Below, in pieces: positions 45,825 through 57,511 of a stretch of DNA of 64,000 nt. Under the pieces are notes generated by a model. That model was not told the DNA's origin. It searched no databases and was given only the letters and a program-made list of their open reading frames with translations. Position 1 is the first letter of the stretch; the number at the start of each line of letters is the position of its first letter. Where the stretch lies: positions 3,582,501-3,646,500 of the forward strand of contig NZ_CP101416.1 of assembly GCF_027942295.1 (NCBI RefSeq), read 5' to 3'. The translations under genes were made by a program, and so were the position numbers. The stretch comes from Pseudanabaena sp. Chao 1811 (lineage in GTDB: Bacteria; Cyanobacteriota; Cyanobacteriia; Pseudanabaenales; Pseudanabaenaceae).

Positions 45825-46553
45825 ATGGTTAACCTCACTTATCCAACTAATCGGATTCTTCCTACTGCTGAAGAATTGCCATCATCTGACGAAACGCCTG
45901 TGGATAACCAGTTACAGAATGACATCCCCAATTTACTGCTAAGTTTATTAGCCTCTATTTGGGCAGATCGTGATGATTGGTACTTTGGCGTAGATATGGG
46001 TATTTACTATAATCCTGATGAACCTGCGATCGTGCCTGATGGGTTTTTGGCAATTGGAGTAAAGCATGATACGGGGGAAAGAGGAAGGCTTAGTTATGTG
46101 CTGTGGGAAGAGCAGAACATTATGCCGATCTTTGCCCTAGAGGTTGTCTCTGAACGCTATAACAGTGAATATGAGGACAAGTTAGTCGATTACCAAGCAT
46201 TAGGTATTCCCTACTATGCGATTTACAATCCCTTAAGTGGACGTAGAGGAAGATTTAAAAATAGGCAGAGATTGGAAGTTTATCGACTAATTTCTGGTAA
46301 ATATGAACTTTTACCCATTGAGAATAATCGCGTTTGGCTACCAGAAATTGATTTAGCTCTCGGTTATGAACAGGGAGAACATATTGCTTGGCAGCGTGAA
46401 TGGCTCTATTGGTATAACGCTTCAGGCGATCGCTACTTGACTGCTAATGAGAGAGCAGTTAATGCTGAAATCATGGCTGCTAAAGAACGGCAACAAAAGG
46501 AAAAATTAGCAGCTTATTTACGGTCAATAGGCGTAGATCCTGATGCAATTTAA
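45825..46553 (+). CDS. Uma2-family putative nuclease (DUF820)
   Basis: The 242-residue protein has the Uma2 core: PAIVPDGFLAIG, IFALEVVSERYNSEYEDKLVDY with the acidic/Lys PD-(D/E)XK-type residues, and LGIPYYAIYNPLSG. The C-terminus is a charged helix (ERQQKEKLAAYLRSIGVDPDAI). The family is greatly expanded in cyanobacteria and its targets are unknown. The last residues AI and the stop lie in a hairpin shared with the convergent gene. Confidence 0.85.
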   Translation: MVNLTYPTNRILPTAEELPSSDETPVDNQLQNDIPNLLLSLLASIWADRDDWYFGVDMGIYYNPDEPAIVPDGFLAIGVKHDTGERGRLSYVLWEEQNIMPIFALEVVSERYNSEYEDKLVDYQALGIPYYAIYNPLSGRRGRFKNRQRLEVYRLISGKYELLPIENNRVWLPEIDLALGYEQGEHIAWQREWLYWYNASGDRYLTANERAVNAEIMAAKERQQKEKLAAYLRSIGVDPDAI

Positions 46554-46594
46554 TTTAGTGGGGCGGCTTAGCCGCACCACTAAATTAAATTGCA
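46544..46594. repeat. Hairpin shared by two convergent gene ends
   Basis: Arms of about 23 bp (GCAATTTAATTTAGTG...) with one bulge span the stop codons of both flanking genes. Because the arms are mirror copies, both proteins end in the same codons GCA-ATT-TAA (Ala-Ile-stop). Confidence 0.75.
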
Positions 46595-47772
46595 GAACCT
46601 TTAGTCGCAATGCGATCGTCAAAGACAAAGCATTCACCTTGCCACAGACTCTCTTCGGGAGGAACTTCCGCTAAATATTTGAGAATTCCTCCTTTAAGAT
46701 GGTAAACCTGATCAAAACCTTGAGCCAACATATAGGCACTTGCTTTCTCGCAACGGATGCCACCTGTGCAGAACATGGCGATTTTTTGCTGCTTATTAGC
46801 ACTTAAATTTTCCTCGACATATTTGGGGAATTCATGAAAGAAGTCGATATTGGGATCGATCGCTCCTTTAAAAGTGCCAAACTCTACTTCGTAAATATTG
46901 CGCGTATCAATGACAATCACATCGGGATCGGCAATTAACGTATTCCAATCCTTAGGATCGACATAGGTTCCCACCTCTTTACTAGGATCGATGCCTGATA
47001 CACCAAACTTTACTAGTTCCTTTTTGAGCCTTACTCGCAACTTGTTATAGGGCATAACATTGCAGTAAGTTTCCTTATGTTCCAAATTATGCAAACGCGA
47101 ATCGGCGCGTAAATAGCTTAATAAAGCATCAATGCCTTCTCGACTACCTGCGATGGTAGAGTTAATTCCCTCTGATGCTAATAAAATTACTCCCTTCAGT
47201 TCATGGCGATCGCAAAAAGCGGTAATGGGCGATCGCATTTCCTTGTAATCCTCTAACTCCGCGAAATGATAGAAAGTTGCTACTACAAATTGATTTTTCT
47301 CTAGGTAGTTGCCTAGATACTTTTCCATCACAAAGTTAGTCAATTTTTCGCCTCGGCAGGATACTTGCTGCTCCTTTACTACTGCAAATCCGCGACTCTT
47401 AAAAAATGCTCTTGCTGTAATGCTCACTTCCACAAATAGGCGTTCTATCTTTAATTCTAAAGCCTTTGCCTCGATCGCGCGATATAGCCGCGTTCCCACA
47501 CCACAGCGCTGATAGTCCTTATGACAAAAGAAACAGTCAATGTGCCCATTGGGTTCTAGTTGGGCAAAGCCGATAATTTCTCCTGCTTCTTCGGCAACAT
47601 AGGTGAAGCTATTCGTGCAGTCTTCTGTCCAGTTGGTGAAATAGAGATCATCGGGAGCCCATGCCTTTACCTGCTCAGGTGAGTAATCACGAATATTCAC
47701 CTCGCGCACAGTATCATGAAATAGCTGGGCGATGCGATCGCTATCTTGGCTTTGGAACAATCGAATTAACAT
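46585..47772 (-). CDS. trhO: Fusion of GNAT acetyltransferase and TrhO tRNA hydroxylase
   Basis: The protein has 395 residues. Residues 1-150 are a GNAT N-acetyltransferase (CGVGTRLYRAIEAKALELKI as the acetyl-CoA loop). Residues 160-395 are TrhO/YceA: ATFYHFAELEDY at the start, the acylphosphatase-like domain, then a rhodanese with FCTGGIRCEKASAY carrying the active Cys. TrhO forms 5-hydroxyuridine at U34 of certain tRNAs. TrhO is usually stand-alone, so the N-terminal acetyltransferase is unusual. No stop or start separates the two parts. Confidence 0.88.
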   Translation of the reverse strand: MLIRLFQSQDSDRIAQLFHDTVREVNIRDYSPEQVKAWAPDDLYFTNWTEDCTNSFTYVAEEAGEIIGFAQLEPNGHIDCFFCHKDYQRCGVGTRLYRAIEAKALELKIERLFVEVSITARAFFKSRGFAVVKEQQVSCRGEKLTNFVMEKYLGNYLEKNQFVVATFYHFAELEDYKEMRSPITAFCDRHELKGVILLASEGINSTIAGSREGIDALLSYLRADSRLHNLEHKETYCNVMPYNKLRVRLKKELVKFGVSGIDPSKEVGTYVDPKDWNTLIADPDVIVIDTRNIYEVEFGTFKGAIDPNIDFFHEFPKYVEENLSANKQQKIAMFCTGGIRCEKASAYMLAQGFDQVYHLKGGILKYLAEVPPEESLWQGECFVFDDRIATKGSAI

Positions 47773-47815
47773 AGTCTTTTTATTATCGTTTGCAATTACA
47801 ACAATTTACGTTCTC

Positions 47816-47963
47816 ACTGGTGTTACGTGGAAGCTCACACCCTCACCCCTAGCCCCTCTCCCAAAAGGGGAGAGGGGAACAAGAAACTAGTCTTACTCCC
47901 CTTCTCCCTTAATGGGAGAAGGGGCTGGGGGATGAGGGCGATATTTGTTCACGTAACATCAGT
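47816..47963. repeat. Inverted repeat flanking a G element at the GIY-YIG gene end
   Basis: ACTGGTGTTACGTGGAA (47816-47832) is a near-exact inverted copy of 47948-47963, which contains the last codons and stop of the GIY-YIG gene. The G element at 47840-47938 lies between the arms. Confidence 0.6.
47840..47938. repeat. G element 1 (two-hairpin, about 99 bp)
   Basis: CCCTCACCCC, a first hairpin CCCCTCTCCC-AAAA-GGGGAGAGGGG, the core AACAAGAAA, a second hairpin with CTTCTCCC/GGGAGAAGG, then GGGGATGAGGG. The ends are complementary to each other, so the unit is an overall palindrome. Similar units occur at 49181, 52113, 54250, 54367, 54481 and 54946. Confidence 0.85.
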
Positions 47964-49154
47964 TCTCACTAGATTTGCTGTTTCTGGATCATAGCGAAAT
48001 TGGTCGAGGTTCCCTTCTTTGATTTTTGTAATCACACTTTCTACTACTTCTAAAGGCACAAGAAACCATTCTCTCGGCTTTACGGGTATCCCAAAGCGAT
48101 CTTGCAATTGGACATCTAGCCTAACGTGATCAAAGAACTTGTGAAGTAGAGCTTCCAATTTTTTGGGGTTAATATTGGCTAATTTAAAGGTGGTAATAAT
48201 TTCCACATCTGCGAGCAAATAAGTAGGATCTTTAGGTGCATTAGCAACACGCTTTTTCACATCACCACTGGTGACACCAATTTTATGAATGATCGAGTGA
48301 TTTGCGACGATAAAAGGATCATCTGATTTACTCCGCAGTACATAAATATAACCAGTTACCAAATCATCTTTTGCTGGTGTATCCGAAAATAGGGGACCTA
48401 AATCGGGTGTGGTAATACGGCGACTGGTTTTGTCCTTATTTAAGGCTCGTTGGAGCGATCGCAATAATAAATCGCTCTCTGTACCATTGTCATAAACAAC
48501 CCGTAAGCGAGAGTTAGGCAGACCGTAATCGCTGGTAAACCACTTTCCCATTTCCGCGACGATCACTTTCTGACCATCGAGAATAAAGAGATCCCCTTGA
48601 TTGATGGCAGCATTGTCCTGATATTTGATGGTTTGGCGTTGACCACTTTTTAAGTCTTGTTGGACTTGATCAAAGATGGGCTTAAATTCGGCAAAGTCTG
48701 CACATTGGTTTCTTTGGGCAATTTCTTCGGCAGTTTTGATTTCTTGACGCGATCGCACATGGGTCAGATGGGTAATATCTTGTGCTGGGTCAGTTTCCGC
48801 TCCAAGAGCTGCCAATAGCTCAGCATCAGTAATCTCAGCAATATCTGATTCCGAAGATTGATTAATATTATTTGCATCTAATAAGCCTCCCGCATCTAGC
48901 CCCTTCAACACTTCACGACATTCTGACGATTCGCGGAGACGATCGAGACGCACTGCATAAAGGCGTTCAAAAATATCGCGATCGCTACCATGTTGAGGCA
49001 TTCTGCCTTGCTCTTCCACAAATCGCTGGATTTCCTCAAAACCAGCAATAATGCGTTCTTCTCTGGCGGAGAGTTGGTCAGTCTGATCGGTAGTAATCTC
49101 TAAGCCCAATTCTTCTAATAGGGCGAGATCATCATCAGTGGTGTATTTAGGCAT
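47949..49154 (-). CDS. GIY-YIG (T5orf172-type) nuclease-domain protein
   Basis: The product has 401 residues from the ATG at 49154; a longer reading would start in the adjacent repeat (GEGAGGVRV) and is rejected. The N-terminal 1-150 is helical, then comes a beta-rich linker (GQKVIVAEMGKW), then a T5orf172-type GIY-YIG domain with YIYVLRS at 269-275, KIGVT at 291-295, KKRV and KKLEALLHKFF carrying the late acidic residue. It is a probable DNA endonuclease. It is on the same strand as the helicase and methylase genes, which suggests one restriction-like locus. Confidence 0.8.
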   Translation of the reverse strand: MPKYTTDDDLALLEELGLEITTDQTDQLSAREERIIAGFEEIQRFVEEQGRMPQHGSDRDIFERLYAVRLDRLRESSECREVLKGLDAGGLLDANNINQSSESDIAEITDAELLAALGAETDPAQDITHLTHVRSRQEIKTAEEIAQRNQCADFAEFKPIFDQVQQDLKSGQRQTIKYQDNAAINQGDLFILDGQKVIVAEMGKWFTSDYGLPNSRLRVVYDNGTESDLLLRSLQRALNKDKTSRRITTPDLGPLFSDTPAKDDLVTGYIYVLRSKSDDPFIVANHSIIHKIGVTSGDVKKRVANAPKDPTYLLADVEIITTFKLANINPKKLEALLHKFFDHVRLDVQLQDRFGIPVKPREWFLVPLEVVESVITKIKEGNLDQFRYDPETANLVRTDVT

Positions 49155-49180
49155 CTTTTTCTCTTTCTTACTAATGTTAA

Positions 49181-49474
49181 CCCTCACCCCCCCAGCCCCC
49201 TCTCCCATGAAGGGAGAGGGAGTAAAACTAATTTCTTGTTCCCCTCTCCCAAAGAGGGAGAGCAGGGTGGTTTCATTTTCGGGAGGCTTGTATCTCCGCC
49301 CTACAGCCTGTCTCAGAAACGAGAAAGTTAAAAAAATCTAAAATCAACCAAGATCTTACATTTTTTGCTTGTATTTCGTTCAGAGTAATGTGGCTAGAAC
49401 ATAGCCCCGTAGAACGTTTCCGAAAATGAAACCACCCTGCTCTCCCAAAGAGGGAGAGGGGCTAGGGGTGAGGG
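49181..49474. repeat. G element 2, interrupted by a 177-bp MITE-like element
   Basis: CCCTCACCCC and the first hairpin (CCCTCTCCCATGAAGGGAGA) are followed by the second hairpin, which is split by the insertion at 49263-49439 and repeated on the far side. It ends GGGGCTAGGGGTGAGGG at the stop of the helicase gene. It fills the spacer between the GIY-YIG and helicase genes. Confidence 0.8.
49263..49439. mobile_element. 177-bp MITE-like element with 20-bp inverted ends
   Basis: CAGGGTGGTTTCATTTTCGG (49263-49282) is exactly complementary to 49420-49439. It has no coding capacity. CTCTCCCAAAGAGGGAGAG (19 bp, itself a hairpin) stands directly on both sides, at 49244-49262 and 49440-49458, so it looks like an unusually long target duplication. 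The transposase family is not evident. Confidence 0.75.
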
Positions 49475-51601
49475 CTAAAGATTATGATCTTCCTTGACTT
49501 TGCGTTGCAAAAAGGCGACTCCTTCCGCCATGCGTTTTTCCCAAGGATCGGAAGCGGTGAGGGAGGGTGGTCTGCCTCTTTCCTGTTTAAACCTTAGCGC
49601 CCGTTTCGCTAAATCTCTTGCTTCTTCTAAGGTGAGGCTAATGCCTTTTGCAGCAATCACTTCGGCGATCTGCTTGAGCCTTTCTTCGGTCATGGACTTG
49701 GCGAGAATGGCGTAGGCTTCGCCAAAGGGATTGATGCGATCGATCAGATCCATGTTCAACTCGGTGACGGAGAAGGCAAACTGGCGCACACCATCAATAA
49801 GAGCCGTATTTGGGGTTGGCTCACTTTCTAGCCGATCGCTAGTTGGAGTATCTGGCTGATTTGTCGGATCAGGAAGATTGAGCAGACTGGGAGTATAGCT
49901 TCCACCTGTTTCATTGAGGGTTTTCTTGGCTTGCTGAATCATATTTAGAGCCGCGATCGCGTGTTGGCGGACGGCTTCTTGATCTTGTTCTTCGAGGATG
50001 GGAAATTTCTCTTTCACAATTTTACCCATACGGACTTGGGTTAATTCTTCGGGGACTAACTCCTCATCAAATAGACCACGCTCGATCGCCTGTTTATCTT
50101 GGACAAAAGCTGTCACTAGTTCCGTGAGATCTTCGCGACAAATCCGTTTTGCTTCCTTGCTTTTGGGTTCCGCTAATCCTTTAATTTCTAATTGTATCTG
50201 ACCAGTCTCTGGGTTGAAGCCCACATTACATTTATTGGGATCGTAACCATTTTCACCATAGTCAAAGCCTTCTGTGGGTTGGTTATTGGGATTTTTAGGT
50301 TTGAAATCAAAGCGAGGCGCGAGGACTTGTTCCATTAACAAACTGGCGGCGATCGCCTTGAGGGTATCATTGACTGCTTCAGTGACGGCTTCCTCAGAGG
50401 CATCGGGTTCGGCGATGAGATTAGTAAAGCGGGCGCAGGTTTTGTTGGGTGCGTCACGGGTGGCGCGTCCGATGATCTGCACAATTTCGGTCAAGCTAGA
50501 GCGATAGCCAATCGTCAAAGCGTGTTCGCACCAAATCCAGTCAAAGCCTTCCTTTGCCATGCCGAGGGCAATAATCAGATCGACGCGATCGCGATTATTT
50601 TTATGATTAGGATCTTTGAGGGCGGCACTGACGCGATCGCGTTTACTAGGGTCATCATCGACGAGATCGGCAATTTTGAGGATCGTGCCGTCAGTGGTTT
50701 TGACTAACTGAAATCCTGTTTGCGGATCGGCTCCTTGCCATTCGCCTAGTGCTTCAATAATATGTTCTACTTCTTTTATTTTATCTTTGGTGCTTTCGCG
50801 GGAATTGACGTTAGGAATATGCAGAATTGTTTTTTCTTTGGGATTTAAGATTTGCATAATTTCATCGGTATAACTCCCAGAGTAGAAGTAATAACCGATG
50901 TCGAGTTGTTTGAGATATTGATAGCCATTAAGTTGTTCGTAGTAGGTGTAGGTAACAGTTTCAAATTTGGCTTCGTCTTGGGGATGCAGCACAGCGATCG
51001 CATCGCCACGAAAGTAAGAACCAGTCATGGCGATAATATGGGTTTTGTCTCGCGCCATCAGTTGACCGACATATTCACCCAGTTTGTTATTGGGATTTGC
51101 GGAAACATGGTGAAATTCATCAATGGCGATCAGGCGTTGATCGAAGGCTTCAATCCCAAATTTATCGACGGCAAAGCGGAAGGTGGCATGGGTACAAATT
51201 AGGACTTTGGCGGTGCTATCGAGAAATTTCTGAACAGCATTGACCTTGCCGCTATCGGTTCCCGATGCGTCGCAAAGGTTCCATTTCGGTTCGACGATCC
51301 AATCTGCCCAAAATCCAAACTGGGTGAGGGGTTCATTATGGAAGCTGGAGCCGATCGATTTTTCGGGAACGACGACGATCGCTTGTTTGAGTCCTTGATT
51401 TTCCAGCTTGTCGAGGGCGATAAACATGAGGGCGCGACTTTTGCCAGAGGCGGGGGGAGATTTGATCAGCAAATATTGTTCGCCGCGTTTTTGGTAGGCG
51501 CGTTCTTGCATGGGGCGCATACCGAGGGCATTGGGCTGGGTGGATGTGCCGTTGTGGGCGTAGGTGACGGATACGGAGGGGATGGCTTTGGGTTTACTCA
51601 T
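49475..51601 (-). CDS. DEAD/DEAH-type helicase of a restriction-like locus
   Basis: The 708-residue superfamily 2 helicase has P-loop PPASGKS at 49-55, Walker B DEFH at 161-164 (DEAH variant), a motif III-like MTGSYF and QIIGRATRD as motif VI. The C-terminal region (about 560-708) is helical with KERGRPPSLTASDPWEKRMA-like basic stretches. Such helicases provide ATP-driven translocation in type I/III restriction and related systems. Flanked by a GIY-YIG gene downstream and a methylase gene upstream, both on the same strand. Confidence 0.85.
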   Translation of the reverse strand: MSKPKAIPSVSVTYAHNGTSTQPNALGMRPMQERAYQKRGEQYLLIKSPPASGKSRALMFIALDKLENQGLKQAIVVVPEKSIGSSFHNEPLTQFGFWADWIVEPKWNLCDASGTDSGKVNAVQKFLDSTAKVLICTHATFRFAVDKFGIEAFDQRLIAIDEFHHVSANPNNKLGEYVGQLMARDKTHIIAMTGSYFRGDAIAVLHPQDEAKFETVTYTYYEQLNGYQYLKQLDIGYYFYSGSYTDEIMQILNPKEKTILHIPNVNSRESTKDKIKEVEHIIEALGEWQGADPQTGFQLVKTTDGTILKIADLVDDDPSKRDRVSAALKDPNHKNNRDRVDLIIALGMAKEGFDWIWCEHALTIGYRSSLTEIVQIIGRATRDAPNKTCARFTNLIAEPDASEEAVTEAVNDTLKAIAASLLMEQVLAPRFDFKPKNPNNQPTEGFDYGENGYDPNKCNVGFNPETGQIQLEIKGLAEPKSKEAKRICREDLTELVTAFVQDKQAIERGLFDEELVPEELTQVRMGKIVKEKFPILEEQDQEAVRQHAIAALNMIQQAKKTLNETGGSYTPSLLNLPDPTNQPDTPTSDRLESEPTPNTALIDGVRQFAFSVTELNMDLIDRINPFGEAYAILAKSMTEERLKQIAEVIAAKGISLTLEEARDLAKRALRFKQERGRPPSLTASDPWEKRMAEGVAFLQRKVKEDHNL

Positions 51602-51745
51602 TGTTTAGTTGATGGTTTCGCTGGAGTTTTCTGGCTGGTCATTTTTCTAATCCTGTACCTGATAGTTCGCGATCGCGCATATCAAAAGTAAAAAATGATA
51701 TAACTTAGTTAAACTTACTACTAACTTTTCCTCTATAACAAGGTT

Positions 51746-51964
51746 ATGAAAGGTATTGAATATATCATAGACGACCAAGGAGAGAAGACTTCTGTTGTCA
51801 TTAATTTGAAGCAATGGGGTAATGAATGGGAAGTATTTTATAATCTTCTACTAAAGCGGTCGTTCCCTTCTGAAAGCTGGGTACATGAAGATTCTTTCTC
51901 AGAAAAACTGGATCAGGCTTTGCAGTGGAATCATAATCACTCTTCTCAAATATTAGAAATATAA
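51746..51964 (+). CDS. Antitoxin-like small protein (solitary)
   Basis: The 72-residue protein starts MKGIEYIIDDQGEKTSVVIN and continues with LKQWGNEWEVFYN, a pattern shared by cyanobacterial Phd/RelB-like antitoxins. No toxin gene follows. It is encoded opposite to the helicase and methylase genes and lies between them. An AAGG close to the ATG may be its ribosome site. It could be an orphan antitoxin or a regulator of the locus. Confidence 0.6.
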   Translation: MKGIEYIIDDQGEKTSVVINLKQWGNEWEVFYNLLLKRSFPSESWVHEDSFSEKLDQALQWNHNHSSQILEI

Positions 51965-52112
51965 TTAATTTGGTAGGGGCAGAGCATTCCTGCGACTATT
52001 TATTTGGATCGCTAAGTTTTATATACAGGAATGCTCTGCCCTAAACTTAGGGCGATCGCTGGTTAATTCTCAACTGCGGAAATGGTAATAATCCCCACGA
52101 TCATCTACAAGA

Positions 52113-52211
52113 CCCTCACCTCTAGCCCCTCTCCCAAAAGGGGAGAGGGGAACAAGAAATTAGTCTTGCTCCCCCTCTCCCCTTTTGGGAGAGGGGGCTG
52201 GGGGGTGAGGG
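52113..52211. repeat. G element 3
   Basis: The same two-hairpin unit as at 47840, with near-identical CCCCTCTCCCAAAAGGGGAG and GGGGAACAAGAAA parts, ends 6 bp before the methylase stop. The preceding 51965-52112 holds a weak inverted pair (AGGGGCAGAGCATTCCTG and CAGGAATGCTCTGCCCT) around 51976-52041. Confidence 0.8.
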
Positions 52212-52217
52212 CGATAT

Positions 52218-55200
52218 TTATGACTTGGTTTTTCGTTTGCTAGCTGGTTTCCCTGTCTCTTGTTTACTGGTCATTTTGCTGTACATCTCAAACAACTTCT
52301 CTAATCGCTCGGTGTCGTTTTTAAACCGCCGCCCGATGTAAATCCGTTCAATGATTTCGTCATTTCTCTCGTGGGCTTGTCTGACTAATGGAAATTCGCT
52401 GTCCATTCTGTCGCGATCGTACATATCGGCGATGGTGGCAGGAAAGTAATGCTCTCTAGCTAACAGTATGTCTTCGGCGCAACGGGTGAGGTCGGTTTTG
52501 TTTTGTTCGGTGAGGGTGGGGACGGGGAAGGTGTTCCAGCCGAGGGTGTTGGAGTAAGAGAATCGCATTTCTAGCCGCACGCAAACTGTACCGATCCAGA
52601 CCCAATGGAGGCGTGAGGCGATGAGTGCCATGTTCCAGAGCGGGGCATCGTAGAGAGCATAAAGTTTGTTTGTAATTGTTTCCCATGAATTTAATAAGCC
52701 ACAAGGAAGAAACTCGCGATTTTCAGATGAAATAGCTGCAACTGTAACGGTTTGCTTTGTTCCAATATTCATCTCACGCATTTGATGATAACGATCAGCT
52801 AGAGCATTAGCATCTTTGGCTCGACTATTTAAACGCATTTTACGAACTCCTTCAATCCGTTGTCTAACAGGTTCAATTTTCAAAGCTTCATCTAAGTCTT
52901 CATCTTCAATCCATAAGCAATAACGAGATAATCCCCGAATAAATTCTGCTGATCCATAAATTCGTTTGATAAACTTATTTTTTTGCTCTTGGTTCAGCCC
53001 TATTCTATTTACTTCATCATAAGAAAGGAGCAAATTACCGCCATCCACAGGTTTATTACCAAAATTCATGGCAGGAATATCGCACAATGGCTTTGCTGCT
53101 TTTTCAATAATTACAGTTGCACCCGAAACCAAGTAAGCATTAATATTTTCAGCTTCCTTTACAATAGTTTGATTTTTCTCATCAATAGAAAATAGATATT
53201 TAAACTTTCTGGAATGATTAGAAATTCCCACAATAACCACTGTCACCCCAGCATTATGACTCGCTAGATTTGCCCATTTAAAAGAAGTATGAGCAAAAGC
53301 AATTTCATGACCAGTTGCAAAAATTAGTGACCAGAGAATTGGTACTTGTTGCCCCTGACAAATGGAATTAGTCGAAACAAATGCCGCCGCCGCTTGGGTT
53401 TGGGTTCCATAATCAGCAGCCTTCATAAACCAACCCGCCACATAATCTAGCGACTTCCATAACTTAGTACGTCCATCAAAAATTTGTTTTAAATCATCCT
53501 TCTGTTCCTTCGATTGCCAAGTAGAACCCAAATAAGGCGGATTTCCACAAATATAAGTTTCTCCTCCCTCATTTTTAAAATCAATCTCAGCCTCATCCCG
53601 CGTCTCTTGCCACAAATCCAAATCCTCACGCTGCACCCTTACCCCCGTTCCCGTTGGCGGACACAGACTCAACCAATCCAACCGCAACGCATTCCCACAA
53701 GTAATCCAATTATCACTCTTTAACGGCAAAAACTCCGCCAGCGCCAACATTTGCCCCCGATACAACACATCACACTGATACTCCGCAATAATCAACGCCA
53801 ACCGCGCCACCTCCACCGCAAAATGCCGAATCTCAATCCCCCGAAAATTGGTTAACGGAATCTCAGACTTGCGATCGCCCTCACCCCGCCGCCGATTGAT
53901 TTCCGCCTCAATGCCGCGCATCTCCTTATAAGCAATCACCAAAAAATTCCCCGACCCACAAGCAGGATCAAACACGCGAATCTTCGCCATCCGTTGCCGC
54001 AAATTCAACAACTTCCGCCCATTGTCCCCCGCCGCCTCCAACTGAGCGCGAAGATCATCAAGAAAAAGCGGATTAAGAACCTTCAAGATATTCGGCACAC
54101 TCGTATAGTGCATCCCCAAAGTGCCGCGCTCCTCATCATCAGCGATCGCCTGAATCATCGACCCAAAAATATCAGGATTAATCCGCTTCCAGTCCAGATT
54201 GCCAATATGCAGCAAATACGATCGCGCAATCTTGCTAAAACGAGGAACTCCCTCACCCCCAGCCCCTCTCCCAGAGCGGGAGAGGGGAGTAAGAGGAGAT
54301 TCTTGTCCCCCCTCTCCCTCCTTGGGAGAAGGGGTTAGGGGATGAGGGCGATCTACCAATTGAAGACCCTCACCCCCAGCCCCTCTCCCATTAGGGGAGA
54401 GGGGAGTAAGAGTCTTTTGTCCCCCTTCTCCCTCCTTGGGAGAAGGGGTTAGGGGATGAGGGCGATCTACCAATTGAAGACCCTCACCCCCAGCCCCTCT
54501 CCCAGTAGGGGAGAGGGGAGTAAGAGATTCTTGTCCCCCCTCTCCCGTCTTGGGAGAAGGGGCTAGGGGATGAGGGTTAAACCCCTGCCGTACAATAGCC
54601 AACGCCTCATCTAGCCTCGTTTCAACTAGCTCACTGGATACACGAACCACTCTCAAACCCAAGGATTCAAGTAGCTCTTGTCGTTGGCGATCTGCTTCTT
54701 GTTGTGAGTCATGCACACCGCCATCCACTTCAACAATTAGCCGTTCTGCCCCACAGAAAAAATCAACAATGAACGCTCCAATTGGCTGTTGTCGCCTGAA
54801 TTTGCGCCCTTCTAGTTTGCGTCCACGTAGAGCTTGCCAGAGAATGCTTTCACTGGGAGAAGGTTCTTTGCGAAATTGACGCGCCACCTCAATCATTTTT
54901 TCTTTAAGAGCAGAAGAAATTTCCCAGTATTCGCCTGAATTAATTCCCTCACCCCCAGCCCCTCTCCCAGTAGGGGAGAGGGGAGTAAGAAATCCTTCTT
55001 GTCCCCCTTCTCCCTCCTTGGGAGAAGGGGCTAGGGGATGAGGGCTAAATAGCCCTCCATTCACATAGGGAAACACATTCGCCCAATTACGAATCCCTAA
55101 CGCCTCGCGTTCCTGTAATGGTGTCGCCATCGCCCGAAACAACTCCGCCAAAACCTCATGGGTATTTTCACCGTCACTCATCTGCGCGATCGTCTGCGTA

Positions 55201-55790
55201 AACAGCCCATCCCCATGAAAAATATTCGTATCCTCCGCAAAAAAGCAGAAAATCAACCGCGCCATAAAATGATTAAAATCTTCACGGCGATCGCCCTGAT
55301 CCCAATCAGGATTGTCCTTTAGCAACTCCACATAAAGCCGATTTAGCCGCCCCGTCGCCTTAATATCAAAGGCATTCTCCCGAATCTGCTTAACCGTCGT
55401 AATCCCTGCCAACGGCAAGAAAAAGCCAAAATGATCGGCAAATTGAGGATATGCACAGGCGATCGTCTCCCCATCGCCCATACTTTCTGCCTCAAAGTCT
55501 TGCCCATCCGTCGCCAGAACAAACTTGACCTTATGCTTGGTCGTGGCTGGACTTGTCCGCAAAGCCGTGAGCGTTGCCCCCACCTCTCCCACATTACAAA
55601 CCTTAATATGAATGTTATTGCGCTGAAGCACACCACCTAGATCTGACAGATTTGATTCCGCACTTTTGAGTCGCTTGATCGTCGTCGCCTTGTTCCCAAA
55701 TGCCTCTAAAAAGGCAAAAGGAAACTCGCTAGCATCAAAAGGTGTCTCAGCTAAATTAGAAACTGCTTCTTCAATTTCAACGGCATTCAT
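52218..55790 (-). CDS. MmeI/YeeA-type DNA adenine methylase carrying an inserted DUF559 domain
   Basis: The protein has 1190 residues. The N-terminal domain (1-248) resembles MmeI_N and ends ...NVFPYVNGGLF. The native continuation RFSKIARSYLLHIGNLDWKR begins about residue 516. The methylase core has motif I FDPACGSGNFL at 607-617 and motif IV NPPY at 750-753, typical of N6-adenine methylation. A target-recognition region and C-terminal domain follow. Residues about 250-514 are an in-frame insertion of four G elements and a DUF559 domain. With helicase and GIY-YIG partners it probably modifies and recognises DNA in a defence system. Confidence 0.88.
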   Translation of the reverse strand: MNAVEIEEAVSNLAETPFDASEFPFAFLEAFGNKATTIKRLKSAESNLSDLGGVLQRNNIHIKVCNVGEVGATLTALRTSPATTKHKVKFVLATDGQDFEAESMGDGETIACAYPQFADHFGFFLPLAGITTVKQIRENAFDIKATGRLNRLYVELLKDNPDWDQGDRREDFNHFMARLIFCFFAEDTNIFHGDGLFTQTIAQMSDGENTHEVLAELFRAMATPLQEREALGIRNWANVFPYVNGGLFSPHPLAPSPKEGEGGQEGFLTPLSPTGRGAGGEGINSGEYWEISSALKEKMIEVARQFRKEPSPSESILWQALRGRKLEGRKFRRQQPIGAFIVDFFCGAERLIVEVDGGVHDSQQEADRQRQELLESLGLRVVRVSSELVETRLDEALAIVRQGFNPHPLAPSPKTGEGGQESLTPLSPTGRGAGGEGLQLVDRPHPLTPSPKEGEGGQKTLTPLSPNGRGAGGEGLQLVDRPHPLTPSPKEGEGGQESPLTPLSRSGRGAGGEGVPRFSKIARSYLLHIGNLDWKRINPDIFGSMIQAIADDEERGTLGMHYTSVPNILKVLNPLFLDDLRAQLEAAGDNGRKLLNLRQRMAKIRVFDPACGSGNFLVIAYKEMRGIEAEINRRRGEGDRKSEIPLTNFRGIEIRHFAVEVARLALIIAEYQCDVLYRGQMLALAEFLPLKSDNWITCGNALRLDWLSLCPPTGTGVRVQREDLDLWQETRDEAEIDFKNEGGETYICGNPPYLGSTWQSKEQKDDLKQIFDGRTKLWKSLDYVAGWFMKAADYGTQTQAAAAFVSTNSICQGQQVPILWSLIFATGHEIAFAHTSFKWANLASHNAGVTVVIVGISNHSRKFKYLFSIDEKNQTIVKEAENINAYLVSGATVIIEKAAKPLCDIPAMNFGNKPVDGGNLLLSYDEVNRIGLNQEQKNKFIKRIYGSAEFIRGLSRYCLWIEDEDLDEALKIEPVRQRIEGVRKMRLNSRAKDANALADRYHQMREMNIGTKQTVTVAAISSENREFLPCGLLNSWETITNKLYALYDAPLWNMALIASRLHWVWIGTVCVRLEMRFSYSNTLGWNTFPVPTLTEQNKTDLTRCAEDILLAREHYFPATIADMYDRDRMDSEFPLVRQAHERNDEIIERIYIGRRFKNDTERLEKLFEMYSKMTSKQETGKPASKRKTKS
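54250..54576 (-). repeat. Three tandem G elements translated in frame
   Basis: Copies at 54250-54348, 54367-54462 and 54481-54576 are separated by identical 18-bp spacers CGATCTACCAATTGAAGA. The repeat period is 114 bp, exactly 38 codons. The translated form is PHPLTPSPKEGEGGQ...TPLSPNGRGAGGEGLQLVDR, repeated. All three remain in frame with the methylase. Confidence 0.9.
54577..54945 (-). other. DUF559 nuclease-like domain inserted in the methylase gene
   Basis: About 123 codons contain EVARQFRKEPSPSESILWQA, the basic stretch RGRKLEGRKFRRQQPIGAF, D343 in IVDFF and E354-x-D356 in IVEVDGG, then HDSQQEADRQRQELLESLG. This is the DUF559 (Vsr-like PD-(D/E)XK) family, normally a free-standing small protein. 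Here it is flanked on both sides by G elements and read through as part of the methylase. Catalytic residues look intact. Confidence 0.85.
54946..55044 (-). repeat. G element on the N-terminal side of the DUF559 insert
   Basis: Same two-hairpin unit, translated as HPLAPSPKEGEGGQEGFLTP and so on in the methylase frame. It marks the join with the native N-terminal domain at about residue 249. Confidence 0.88.
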
Positions 55791-56146
55791 GGACAGATAT
55801 CAGTTAAAGGTGATAGGTTACGCGATCGCTCAACCATCCTACATTTAATTCCCACAACCTAGGGCTTCACAGTAGAATAAGAACCCAGTTTTTTGATGGT
55901 GCGGCTTTGCCGCACCATCAAAAAACTGGTTCTTTAATGAAAATGAGCTTTCTGGTTTCTGATTTTGGACATGGACATGACAGAGATGTATGATGCCAAT
56001 GGGCTGACACCTGTCATTATCAAAAAATGTCAAGGATGGCAATTCCCTTTGGGCATGAGTAAGCACAGATTAAATTTTGACTAGAATTTTAGGCAGTATA
56101 TATAAATCGCCCAAATCCCCATCCGCACTATCAATTTTAGGAAAAT
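55791..56146. other. Spacer upstream of the methylase and rlmD
   Basis: It contains an about 25-bp near-perfect hairpin at 55879-55934 (arm AAGAACC-AGTTTTTTGATGG..., GCGGCTTTGCCGC centre), related to those at 2012, 5567 and 29254. No gene is supported. The promoters of the two divergent genes should lie on either side of the hairpin. Confidence 0.5.
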
Positions 56147-57511
56147 ATGTTGCAACAAGGACAAAAAATTACGCTCACCATTGATGACCTCGCCGATAGT
56201 GGCGATGGAGTGGGTCGTTACGAAAATATTGCCATCTTTGTGCCGAATACTGTCCCTAGCGATCGCATTGTTGCCAAGCTAGAGTTTGTGAAAAAGAATT
56301 TTGCTAAGGCAAGCATTGAAAAAATTTTAACGCCATCAAGCGATCGCGTCCGTCCTAATTGCATTGTTGCTGACAAGTGCGGTGGTTGTCAGTGGCAAGC
56401 CGTCAGCTATCCTGCCCAACTGCGAACCAAGCAAAACATTGTTCTTCAAGCATTACAAAGAATCGGTGGCTTTGATGCTGATCTTTTAGAAGAACTCATT
56501 TCCCCGATTGTCGGTGCGAAAGATAGCTTGCACTACCGCAACAAAGTTACCTATCCCCTAGCTACTGGCAAAGATGGCAATCTTAAAGCAGGCTACTACC
56601 AGAAAGGAAGCCATAAGATCGTCAATCTCAATCAATGCCCTGCTCAAGATGAACGCCTCGATCCGATGCTTGCTGAACTTAAAATGGATATCCATAACCA
56701 ATGTTGGGAAATCTATGATGAGAATGCTCATACAGGCTTACTACGGCATTTAGGACTGCGTATCGGCAGACATACAGGCGAGATTCTGATTACTATTGTC
56801 ACCCGTGATTGGGATGTACCGAACTTAGGAGTATTTGCCCAGACATGGCTAGAGCGCTATGACAAGGTGGTGGGTGTAATTCTCAATTGCAATCCTGATA
56901 AAACCAATGCCATTTTTGGACGTGAGAGCCGTTGCATTGCGGGTAAAGACTATCTTTTAGAAAAATTTGCGGGTCTTACCTTCCGTCTGCGTGGAGATAC
57001 TTTCTTTCAGGTTTATACAGAGCAAGCAGAGAAGATGTTCAACATTATCGAATCAGAGTTGCAACTAGAAGGAACAGAAGTTCTCTTAGATGCCTATGCT
57101 GGTATTGGCACGATCGCTTTACCCCTAGCCGAACAGGTCAAGCAGGCGATCGCGATCGAAATTCAGCCACAGGCTACTGCTCAAGGTAAGCTCAATGCGG
57201 AACTCAACGGTATTGATAACGTGGTTTTCCACACTGGTAAAGTCGAAGAATTGATCAGCACTCTCAATGTACAGCCTGATATCGTGATCCTCGATCCTCC
57301 CCGCAAAGGTTGTGAACCTGAAGTAATTACCTTTCTCCGCGAAAATGCTCCTGAACGTATTGTCTATGTCAGTTGCAATCCCGCCACCCAAGCGAGAGAT
57401 CTCAAGTTGCTATGTGAAGGTAATCTCTATCAACTCACTCGCATTCAACCGATTGACTTTTTCCCGCAAACCTCTCACGTCGAAGCGATCGCTTTTTTGG
57501 CTAAGGCATAA
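56147..57511 (+). CDS. rlmD: 23S rRNA (uracil-5)-methyltransferase, RlmD/RumA type
   Basis: The protein has 454 residues. The N-terminal TRAM domain spans 1-60 (DSGDGVGRYENIAIFVPN). The 4Fe-4S cysteines lie in RPNCIVADKCGGCQWQ and a later NQC. The SAM domain has LLDAYAGIGTIALPLA, ILDPPRKGC and YVSCNPATQARDL with the catalytic Cys. It methylates uracil C5 in rRNA (U1939-type) or possibly tRNA (TrmA/RlmCD-like specificity not resolved). Normal length; monocistronic. Confidence 0.9.
   Translation: MLQQGQKITLTIDDLADSGDGVGRYENIAIFVPNTVPSDRIVAKLEFVKKNFAKASIEKILTPSSDRVRPNCIVADKCGGCQWQAVSYPAQLRTKQNIVLQALQRIGGFDADLLEELISPIVGAKDSLHYRNKVTYPLATGKDGNLKAGYYQKGSHKIVNLNQCPAQDERLDPMLAELKMDIHNQCWEIYDENAHTGLLRHLGLRIGRHTGEILITIVTRDWDVPNLGVFAQTWLERYDKVVGVILNCNPDKTNAIFGRESRCIAGKDYLLEKFAGLTFRLRGDTFFQVYTEQAEKMFNIIESELQLEGTEVLLDAYAGIGTIALPLAEQVKQAIAIEIQPQATAQGKLNAELNGIDNVVFHTGKVEELISTLNVQPDIVILDPPRKGCEPEVITFLRENAPERIVYVSCNPATQARDLKLLCEGNLYQLTRIQPIDFFPQTSHVEAIAFLAKA

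Follow-up and report, generated by a model that had tools for sequence, protein, structure and literature searches.

A DUF559 nuclease domain bounded by palindromic repeats, in frame within a Pseudanabaena DNA methylase: a probable copy of a homing-nuclease-like mobile unit

Rickettsia palindromic elements (RPEs) are palindromes of about 150 bp that occur in frame within protein genes, as stated in the relevant section of a review (PMC10969869). In phage methylases, the ShiLan element is described as an insertion that stays open in frame, contains an endonuclease and behaves in a homing-like manner (PMC11855218). A DUF559-containing gene has been classed under the EDxHD endonucleases in the part of a survey dealing with it (PMC9403480), and the Caulobacter DUF559 protein VsrA is presented as a predicted Vsr-like mismatch-repair nuclease (PMC12907096). 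In the open-licence PMC literature searched, neither the pairing of DUF559 with repeats nor in-frame DUF559 inserts other than inteins were the subject of any paper found. Here, we describe a DUF559 domain set between palindromic repeats inside a DNA methylase gene, in a 64,000-nucleotide stretch of the Pseudanabaena sp. Chao 1811 genome (hereafter, the window).

The methylase gene (52218–55790, minus strand) encodes an MmeI/YeeA-type (type IIG-like) protein of 1190 aa, matches the PADLOC model REase_MTase_IIG at 6e-277 and is a single open frame of 1190 codons running from 55790 down to 52218. The protein has the Pfam domain series of MmeI/type IIG methylases, MmeI_N (residues 1–159), MmeI_hel (171–248), MmeI_Mtase (584–867), MmeI_TRD (890–1093) and MmeI_C (1096–1175), with a DUF559 match (PF04480; residues 299–398; 99.6 bits against a cut-off of 20.6) placed after the helical spacer and ahead of the methyltransferase. 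The whole in-frame insert, also read on the minus strand, occupies 54249–55043 (residues 250–514) and comprises an upstream palindromic repeat (54945–55043, residues 250–282), the DUF559 nuclease domain with its edges (54579–54944, residues 283–404), in which E314, W318, Q334, D343, E354, D356, H360 and D367 are conserved, and three downstream palindromic repeats (54480–54575, residues 406–437; 54366–54461, residues 444–475; 54249–54347, residues 482–514) that are arrayed in tandem with a unit length of 114 bp. For each of the four inserted copies, the frame in use is the only one of the six that is open, and the gene has the RPE-type feature of a palindromic repeat in frame inside a protein gene. 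ORF, Pfam and repeat mapping confirm the preliminary description of this DNA, which had read residues 250–514 as one repeat, DUF559 and three repeats in frame; its numbering of D343 and E354 proved correct on rechecking the residue positions, and its view of a repeat-bounded insertion that kept the frame and supplied glycine/proline-rich linkers is supported. An intein or intron in the window insert was rejected: no intein family matched the protein at E 0.001 in Pfam or NCBIfam (the insert ends in GAGGEG, followed by V), no self-splicing intron matched in Rfam at gathering thresholds across 46000–57000, and no stop codon interrupts the frame.

Three of the four inserted copies were folded as DNA, together with a solo copy of the same repeat directly past the methylase stop codon (52109–52212, minus strand), and gave hairpins spanning their full length (−34.5 to −43.7 kcal/mol; z −5.2 to −9.3). 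The repeat core occurs eight times in the window (≤3 mismatches), against none expected from shuffles, and has 64 genomic occurrences (≤2 mismatches; 0 for the reversed control), and these genomic cores and the hairpin folds constitute the REPIN/RAYT-type feature of a multi-copy palindrome. Solo repeat copies are present in all three intergenic gaps of the genes from 55790 down to 46585 (47840–47860, 49454–49474 and 52113–52211). An inverted repeat of a different type, with 28-nt arms that are 89% complementary and 3 nt apart, stands upstream of the methylase (55878–55936). The genes downstream of the methylase include a DEAD/ResIII helicase (49478–51601, minus strand), a relative of which lies near 67 of 80 methylase homologues, and a T5orf172-domain gene (47952–49208, minus strand), with a relative near 60 of the 80; T5orf172 is presumably a GIY-YIG-like nuclease. 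Methylase, helicase and T5orf172 gene (47952–55790) form a set, as relatives of both partners are found near the methylase in 58 of the 80 homologous loci.

The insert is probably a copy of a repeat-bounded, homing-nuclease-like mobile unit able to persist in frame. The repeat-bounded DUF559 domain in the methylase, together with similar units inside many genes of several phyla, suggests a mobile element that lives in coding sequence without self-splicing. The alternative that comes next is a functional fusion, in which restriction-modification (R-M) enzymes recruit DUF559, the repeats serve only as a recombination tool or linker, and the insert is selected as the methylase becomes a cutter. 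We consider this unlikely, and the insertion site itself bears on it. A search with the portion of the methylase that follows the insert yielded 80 homologous loci with about 68–83% identity in named genomes of many phyla, and the flanks of the site could be read in 78 of them (L119 and L176 being unreadable). Close homologues are without residues 250–514: the site is empty in 70 of the 78, with 12 nt between the flanks (typically NGGLFS-GSTE-VPRFSK), and has 24 nt in two. The direct junction of NGGLF and RFSKIAR that had been predicted for normal homologues is seen in these 70, with a four-residue spacer. No target-site duplication is visible at the window site, where the 12-nt spacer appears to have been replaced. 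Searches with three seeds found DUF559 in none of the 80 homologues, which speaks against a fusion.

Repeats alone, 103–222 nt long, stand exactly at the insertion site in six of the 78 homologues (L115, L126, L146, L165, L178 and L181), and in L181 the frame is broken there. In L126 (4754–4990), a second palindrome family is nested within the first, in frame. The methylase is present in three of 26 genomes of the genus, in the window genome with DUF559 and in two with the repeat only, and these two relatives also count against a fusion. Both share a 10-nt stub of a first repeat, a spacer resembling the window's tandem spacer and one repeat, the pattern that a deletion within a longer array would leave; the lost part may have held DUF559. 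Three other genera carry DUF559 at the window site (L084, the right side of which ends at a contig edge, L089 and L087). The preliminary description had regarded DUF559 at this site without repeats in distant species as contrary to its reading, and in all three loci repeats are there too. That one and the same site exists in empty, repeat-only and DUF559-filled forms favours the mobile unit. L087 (698–4390) appears chimeric, one methylase passing into a different one at the DUF559 insert, through either domain shuffling or misassembly.

The arrangement recurs well beyond this site. All three DUF559 domains found in the window genome are within R-M genes and adjoin three different repeat sequences. 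Among relatives, all 71 strong DUF559 matches from 58 genomes were taken, weak matches (≤39 bits) being left out, and 42 of the 71 loci proved embedded, with hosts judged by reading; these include type ISP, MmeI-type (at three positions), HsdR, HsdS, DUF1156 and Eco57I-type methylases. One Eco57I-type methylase with a DUF559 insert lies near brxC on the complete Pseudanabaena galeata plasmid pPg_02 (L366, 3421–8286), where it is annotated as a single CDS, 'DUF559 domain-containing protein'. In wider samples, which consist of best-scoring rather than random loci, embedded domains account for 6 of 28 loci in Chloroflexota, 8 of 29 in Bacteroidota and 14 of 29 in cyanobacteria, and the 23 strong proteobacterial loci, likewise the best-scoring, are mostly free-standing, with L372 seemingly embedded in HsdM by eye. 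Among the hosts in the wider samples are LeuRS, PriA, IspE, HsdM and peptidases, as well as MetH at two positions and HsdR at a further position; one each of LeuRS, MetH, PriA and IspE was scanned and passed its NCBIfam cut-off despite the insert. Altogether, 70 embedded domains were placed at 29 host positions in cyanobacteria, Chloroflexota and Bacteroidota, the positions being named by eye with the aid of sequence clusters and three rows (L218, L236 and L244) apparently having been misread in the host reading of the wider samples. The event at the window methylase is real, as first proposed, but the view of it as a one-off gives way to recurrence.

Single Pfam domains are split by DUF559 in L067 (MmeI_Mtase) and L046 (Type_ISP_C), and in MetH L229 and HsdM L252 the profile match breaks off at the insert, so that the domain is apparently split. 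The 70 embedded cases include four inteins, four end fusions (L277, L287, L281 and L303) and one (L232) with the host on one side only; in L277 (334–2064), a single IspE frame holds two DUF559 domains, one on either side of the kinase. In L059, L062 and L077, the host resumes downstream of DUF559 in another frame and is interrupted or frameshifted, a pattern to be expected if these insertions did not originate as fusions, and in L248 the host frame looks broken by eye. As 'embedded' was first defined by ORF length, broken insertions are under-counted. That host-breaking insertions do occur argues against a law of in-frame insertion and in favour of selection after insertion. Of 29 free-standing loci, none is flanked by the two halves of a host gene from the embedded set. 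One interrupted host may lie on a Synechocystis plasmid, where a short DUF1156 gene is immediately followed by a DUF559 gene. Among the 29 listed of 31 loci on viral contigs, no DUF559 inside a host gene was recognisable by eye, and phage records gave only two weak DUF559 matches. The inteins L103, L240 and L241, situated in a DNA methylase, hold DUF559 (TIGR01443 above its cut-off in all three, PF14890 below its own), from which it follows that the family acts elsewhere as a homing-element endonuclease. DUF559 inteins stand at a CGSGTT-like methylase motif in L103, L239, L240 and L241, from one cyanobacterium and Chloroflexota (L239 by eye only), and repeat-like sequence is also found near their N-terminal part.

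A quick tree of 157 DUF559 domains (112 columns; L246 and rows with stops or fewer than 80 residues excluded), in which many forks are unresolved, placed the window copy in a clade of 15 rows (SH-aLRT 92) that spans seven host positions, and one sublineage therefore enters different genes. Switches between the embedded and free-standing states number 15, against 51.6 in shuffles. For several sites, namely ISP in the cyanobacterial relatives, PriA and the window site, the nearest kin of a copy are the copies at the same site.

All 70 embedded domains share, without exception, the eight residues conserved in the window domain, and for three groups the median dN/dS of DUF559 is 0.068, 0.145 and 0.056. 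In the first of these, the Mme2 group, in which linkers were measured, the linkers have a dN/dS of 0.66–0.72 and the host part 0.19. In the MmeI group, dS forms a valley of about 0.3 around the insert, against 0.5–0.7 over much of the upstream part; both gene ends are also low, and as other stretches of the gene partly share the valley, gene conversion is not proven. The DUF559 domain was modelled with a pLDDT of 87.9, whereas the prediction of the full-length protein was poor (mean pLDDT 55.9) and was not used. The predicted fold matches 3HRL (Z 15.5, rmsd 1.6 over 92 residues), the homing endonuclease I-Bth0305I (Foldseek E 2e-4; Z 13.0, rmsd 2.7 over 92 residues) and Vsr (Z 10.3), and the modelled domain would accordingly fit the catalytic fold of EDxHD homing endonucleases.

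The strong purifying selection and the intact catalytic residues are also what a functional fusion would predict, and among the cyanobacterial relatives most hosts are R-M or BREX-like genes. Against it, the operon already has a T5orf172 gene of its own, the hosts include HsdR, LeuRS, MetH, PriA and IspE, and three hosts are out of frame past the insert. HsdR already carries a nuclease. It is the operon's own T5orf172 gene, the housekeeping hosts and the broken hosts that weaken the fusion. The same evidence touches the earlier claim that the methylase has gained a nuclease: DUF559 is indeed in frame, but nuclease gain as the point of the insertion is less supported, given that a T5orf172 gene is often nearby and that LeuRS, MetH and IspE are hosts without an obvious use for a nuclease.

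The repeats of the window accompany DUF559 in other genomes as well. Across 41 genomes, 63 copies of the window repeat core were seen within 600 bp of DUF559 against 1.02 expected, a 62-fold excess, so that DUF559 with the same repeats, which the preliminary description had proposed to look for, does exist elsewhere. Genome G037 was excluded from these sums, its reversed-pattern control being as high as the signal. All three genomic copies in G053 and eight of 12 in G049 lie near DUF559 (≤600 bp); in 17 of the 41 genomes no core was found near it, partly because other repeat families stand there. Around 32 DUF559 loci (100,651 b) there are 49 cores, compared with none around 30 N6_Mtase loci of the same genomes (114,734 b) and none around their 30 best-scoring Y1_Tnp loci (98,871 b). 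The N6_Mtase control rejects a general clustering of repeats in R-M genes, though the window operon has its intergenic solo copies, and a RAYT as the mover is rejected by the lack of cores adjoining the 30 Y1_Tnp loci.

Short GC hairpins were counted whatever the repeat sequence. With the DUF559 domains relocated by tblastn, 27 of 42 embedded and 16 of 29 free loci of the relatives have hairpins on both sides of the domain. Among the best-scoring loci of the other samples, the counts for embedded and free loci are 3 of 6 and 10 of 22 for Chloroflexota, 4 of 8 and 14 of 21 for Bacteroidota, and 10 of 14 and 12 of 15 for the wider cyanobacteria; for Proteobacteria the count is 14 of 23 loci. The controls gave 0 of 30 (N6_Mtase) and 2 of 30 (Y1_Tnp), and the mean hairpin density in DUF559 flanks is about 4- to 12-fold over background. 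The left and right flanks of one locus are more alike than flanks of different loci (p 2e-7 for embedded, 1e-31 for free loci); when one embedded locus per position is taken, however, the 95% point of mismatched pairs is exceeded by only 7 of 28 left-right pairs.

Such an association could also arise if unrelated machinery, for example a RAYT-type transposase or plain recombination, moves the palindromes and DUF559 is cargo trapped between copies. We judge this improbable, and what probability it keeps is due to the fact that most repeat copies lie away from DUF559 (55 of 64 in genome G000). The repeat-only insertions at the window site agree with it, as do repeat-rich genomes without strong DUF559, five of which contain 47 (G006), 54 (G023), 35 (G036), 35 (G015) and 32 (G030) cores; the repeats can therefore now exist without DUF559. 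The density of cores with and without strong DUF559 is 5.1 and 1.0 per Mb, a modest difference (p 0.011) that is uncorrected for relatedness. However, the 30 best-scoring Y1 transposases have no repeat core near them, and hairpins flank DUF559 in samples of four phyla with linkers that differ from locus to locus by eye, which the trapping of a single cargo does not predict. An artefact of assembly or annotation is very improbable: repeats can mis-assemble and L087 resembles two joined methylases, but the window genome is one 4.73-Mb contig, the comparable arrangement on pPg_02 is a single CDS on a complete plasmid, and the frames are under selection in nine orthologues.

For the mobile unit that we favour, the following course of events may be proposed. 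The unit would consist of a DUF559 nuclease, with the Vsr/EDxHD homing-endonuclease fold, and the long, near-perfect palindromes that enclose it. The probable first step is a nick or cut made by the nuclease, either at a target or at an extruded palindrome, after which repair would copy the unit to new places; the nuclease would be the driver of the movement and the repeats its putative substrate. In coding sequence, the host protein would be kept only where repeats and nuclease match the frame of the host. The translations of the repeats, rich in glycine and proline, may act as flexible linkers on which the host enzyme goes on working, so that host and nuclease may both be active in the fused protein. 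Recombination between repeats could remove the nuclease and leave a repeat scar.

More broadly, and tentatively, these loci may represent a widespread bacterial mobile element made of a DUF559 nuclease and cognate long palindromes, which would spread to intergenic and coding DNA and sit in frame inside enzymes, housekeeping ones included, without splicing. Solo palindromes would be its non-autonomous remnants, and the whole would parallel REPIN/RAYT, with a nuclease of the Vsr/EDxHD fold as the driver in place of an HUH transposase. If this is true, a common but little-studied bacterial nuclease family gains a function, and palindromic repeats for which the literature searched names no agent gain a candidate. 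A third way besides introns and inteins would exist for a nuclease to reside within a gene, as an extra protein domain on repeat-encoded linkers, and multidomain proteins would have a further natural source.

The locus can finally be set against the systems named at the outset. Palindromic elements in frame inside protein genes are common to RPEs and the window, and the likeness to the Rickettsia elements drawn in the preliminary description finds support in the review, whose section on RPEs mentions no nuclease domain inside them, whereas here, as compared by description, the palindromes bound DUF559 (PMC10969869). With REPIN/RAYT, as characterised in the pertinent part of the source, the locus shares multi-copy palindromes beside a DNA-processing gene (PMC3116915); RAYTs, however, are Y1 transposases and REPs are extragenic, in contrast to a DUF559 nuclease and copies in coding sequence. 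The likeness to EDxHD homing endonucleases is one of predicted structure, I-Bth0305I being the second-best structural match of the modelled DUF559 domain, and unlike these and intein endonucleases, the window insert, in which searches showed neither a splicing domain nor an intron, remains part of the reading frame. The ShiLan element is likewise an insertion open in frame within a DNA methylase with an endonuclease inside, but that endonuclease is of the HNH type and lies in another frame, and flanking palindromes go unmentioned in the account of the element given there (PMC11855218). Free-standing DUF559 and Vsr-like proteins (3HRL and VsrA) have the same fold and motif, and the window domain differs in that it lies between repeats within another enzyme. 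The closest known systems are thus RPEs, REPIN/RAYT, EDxHD endonucleases and the ShiLan element, each of which shares part of the features of this locus.
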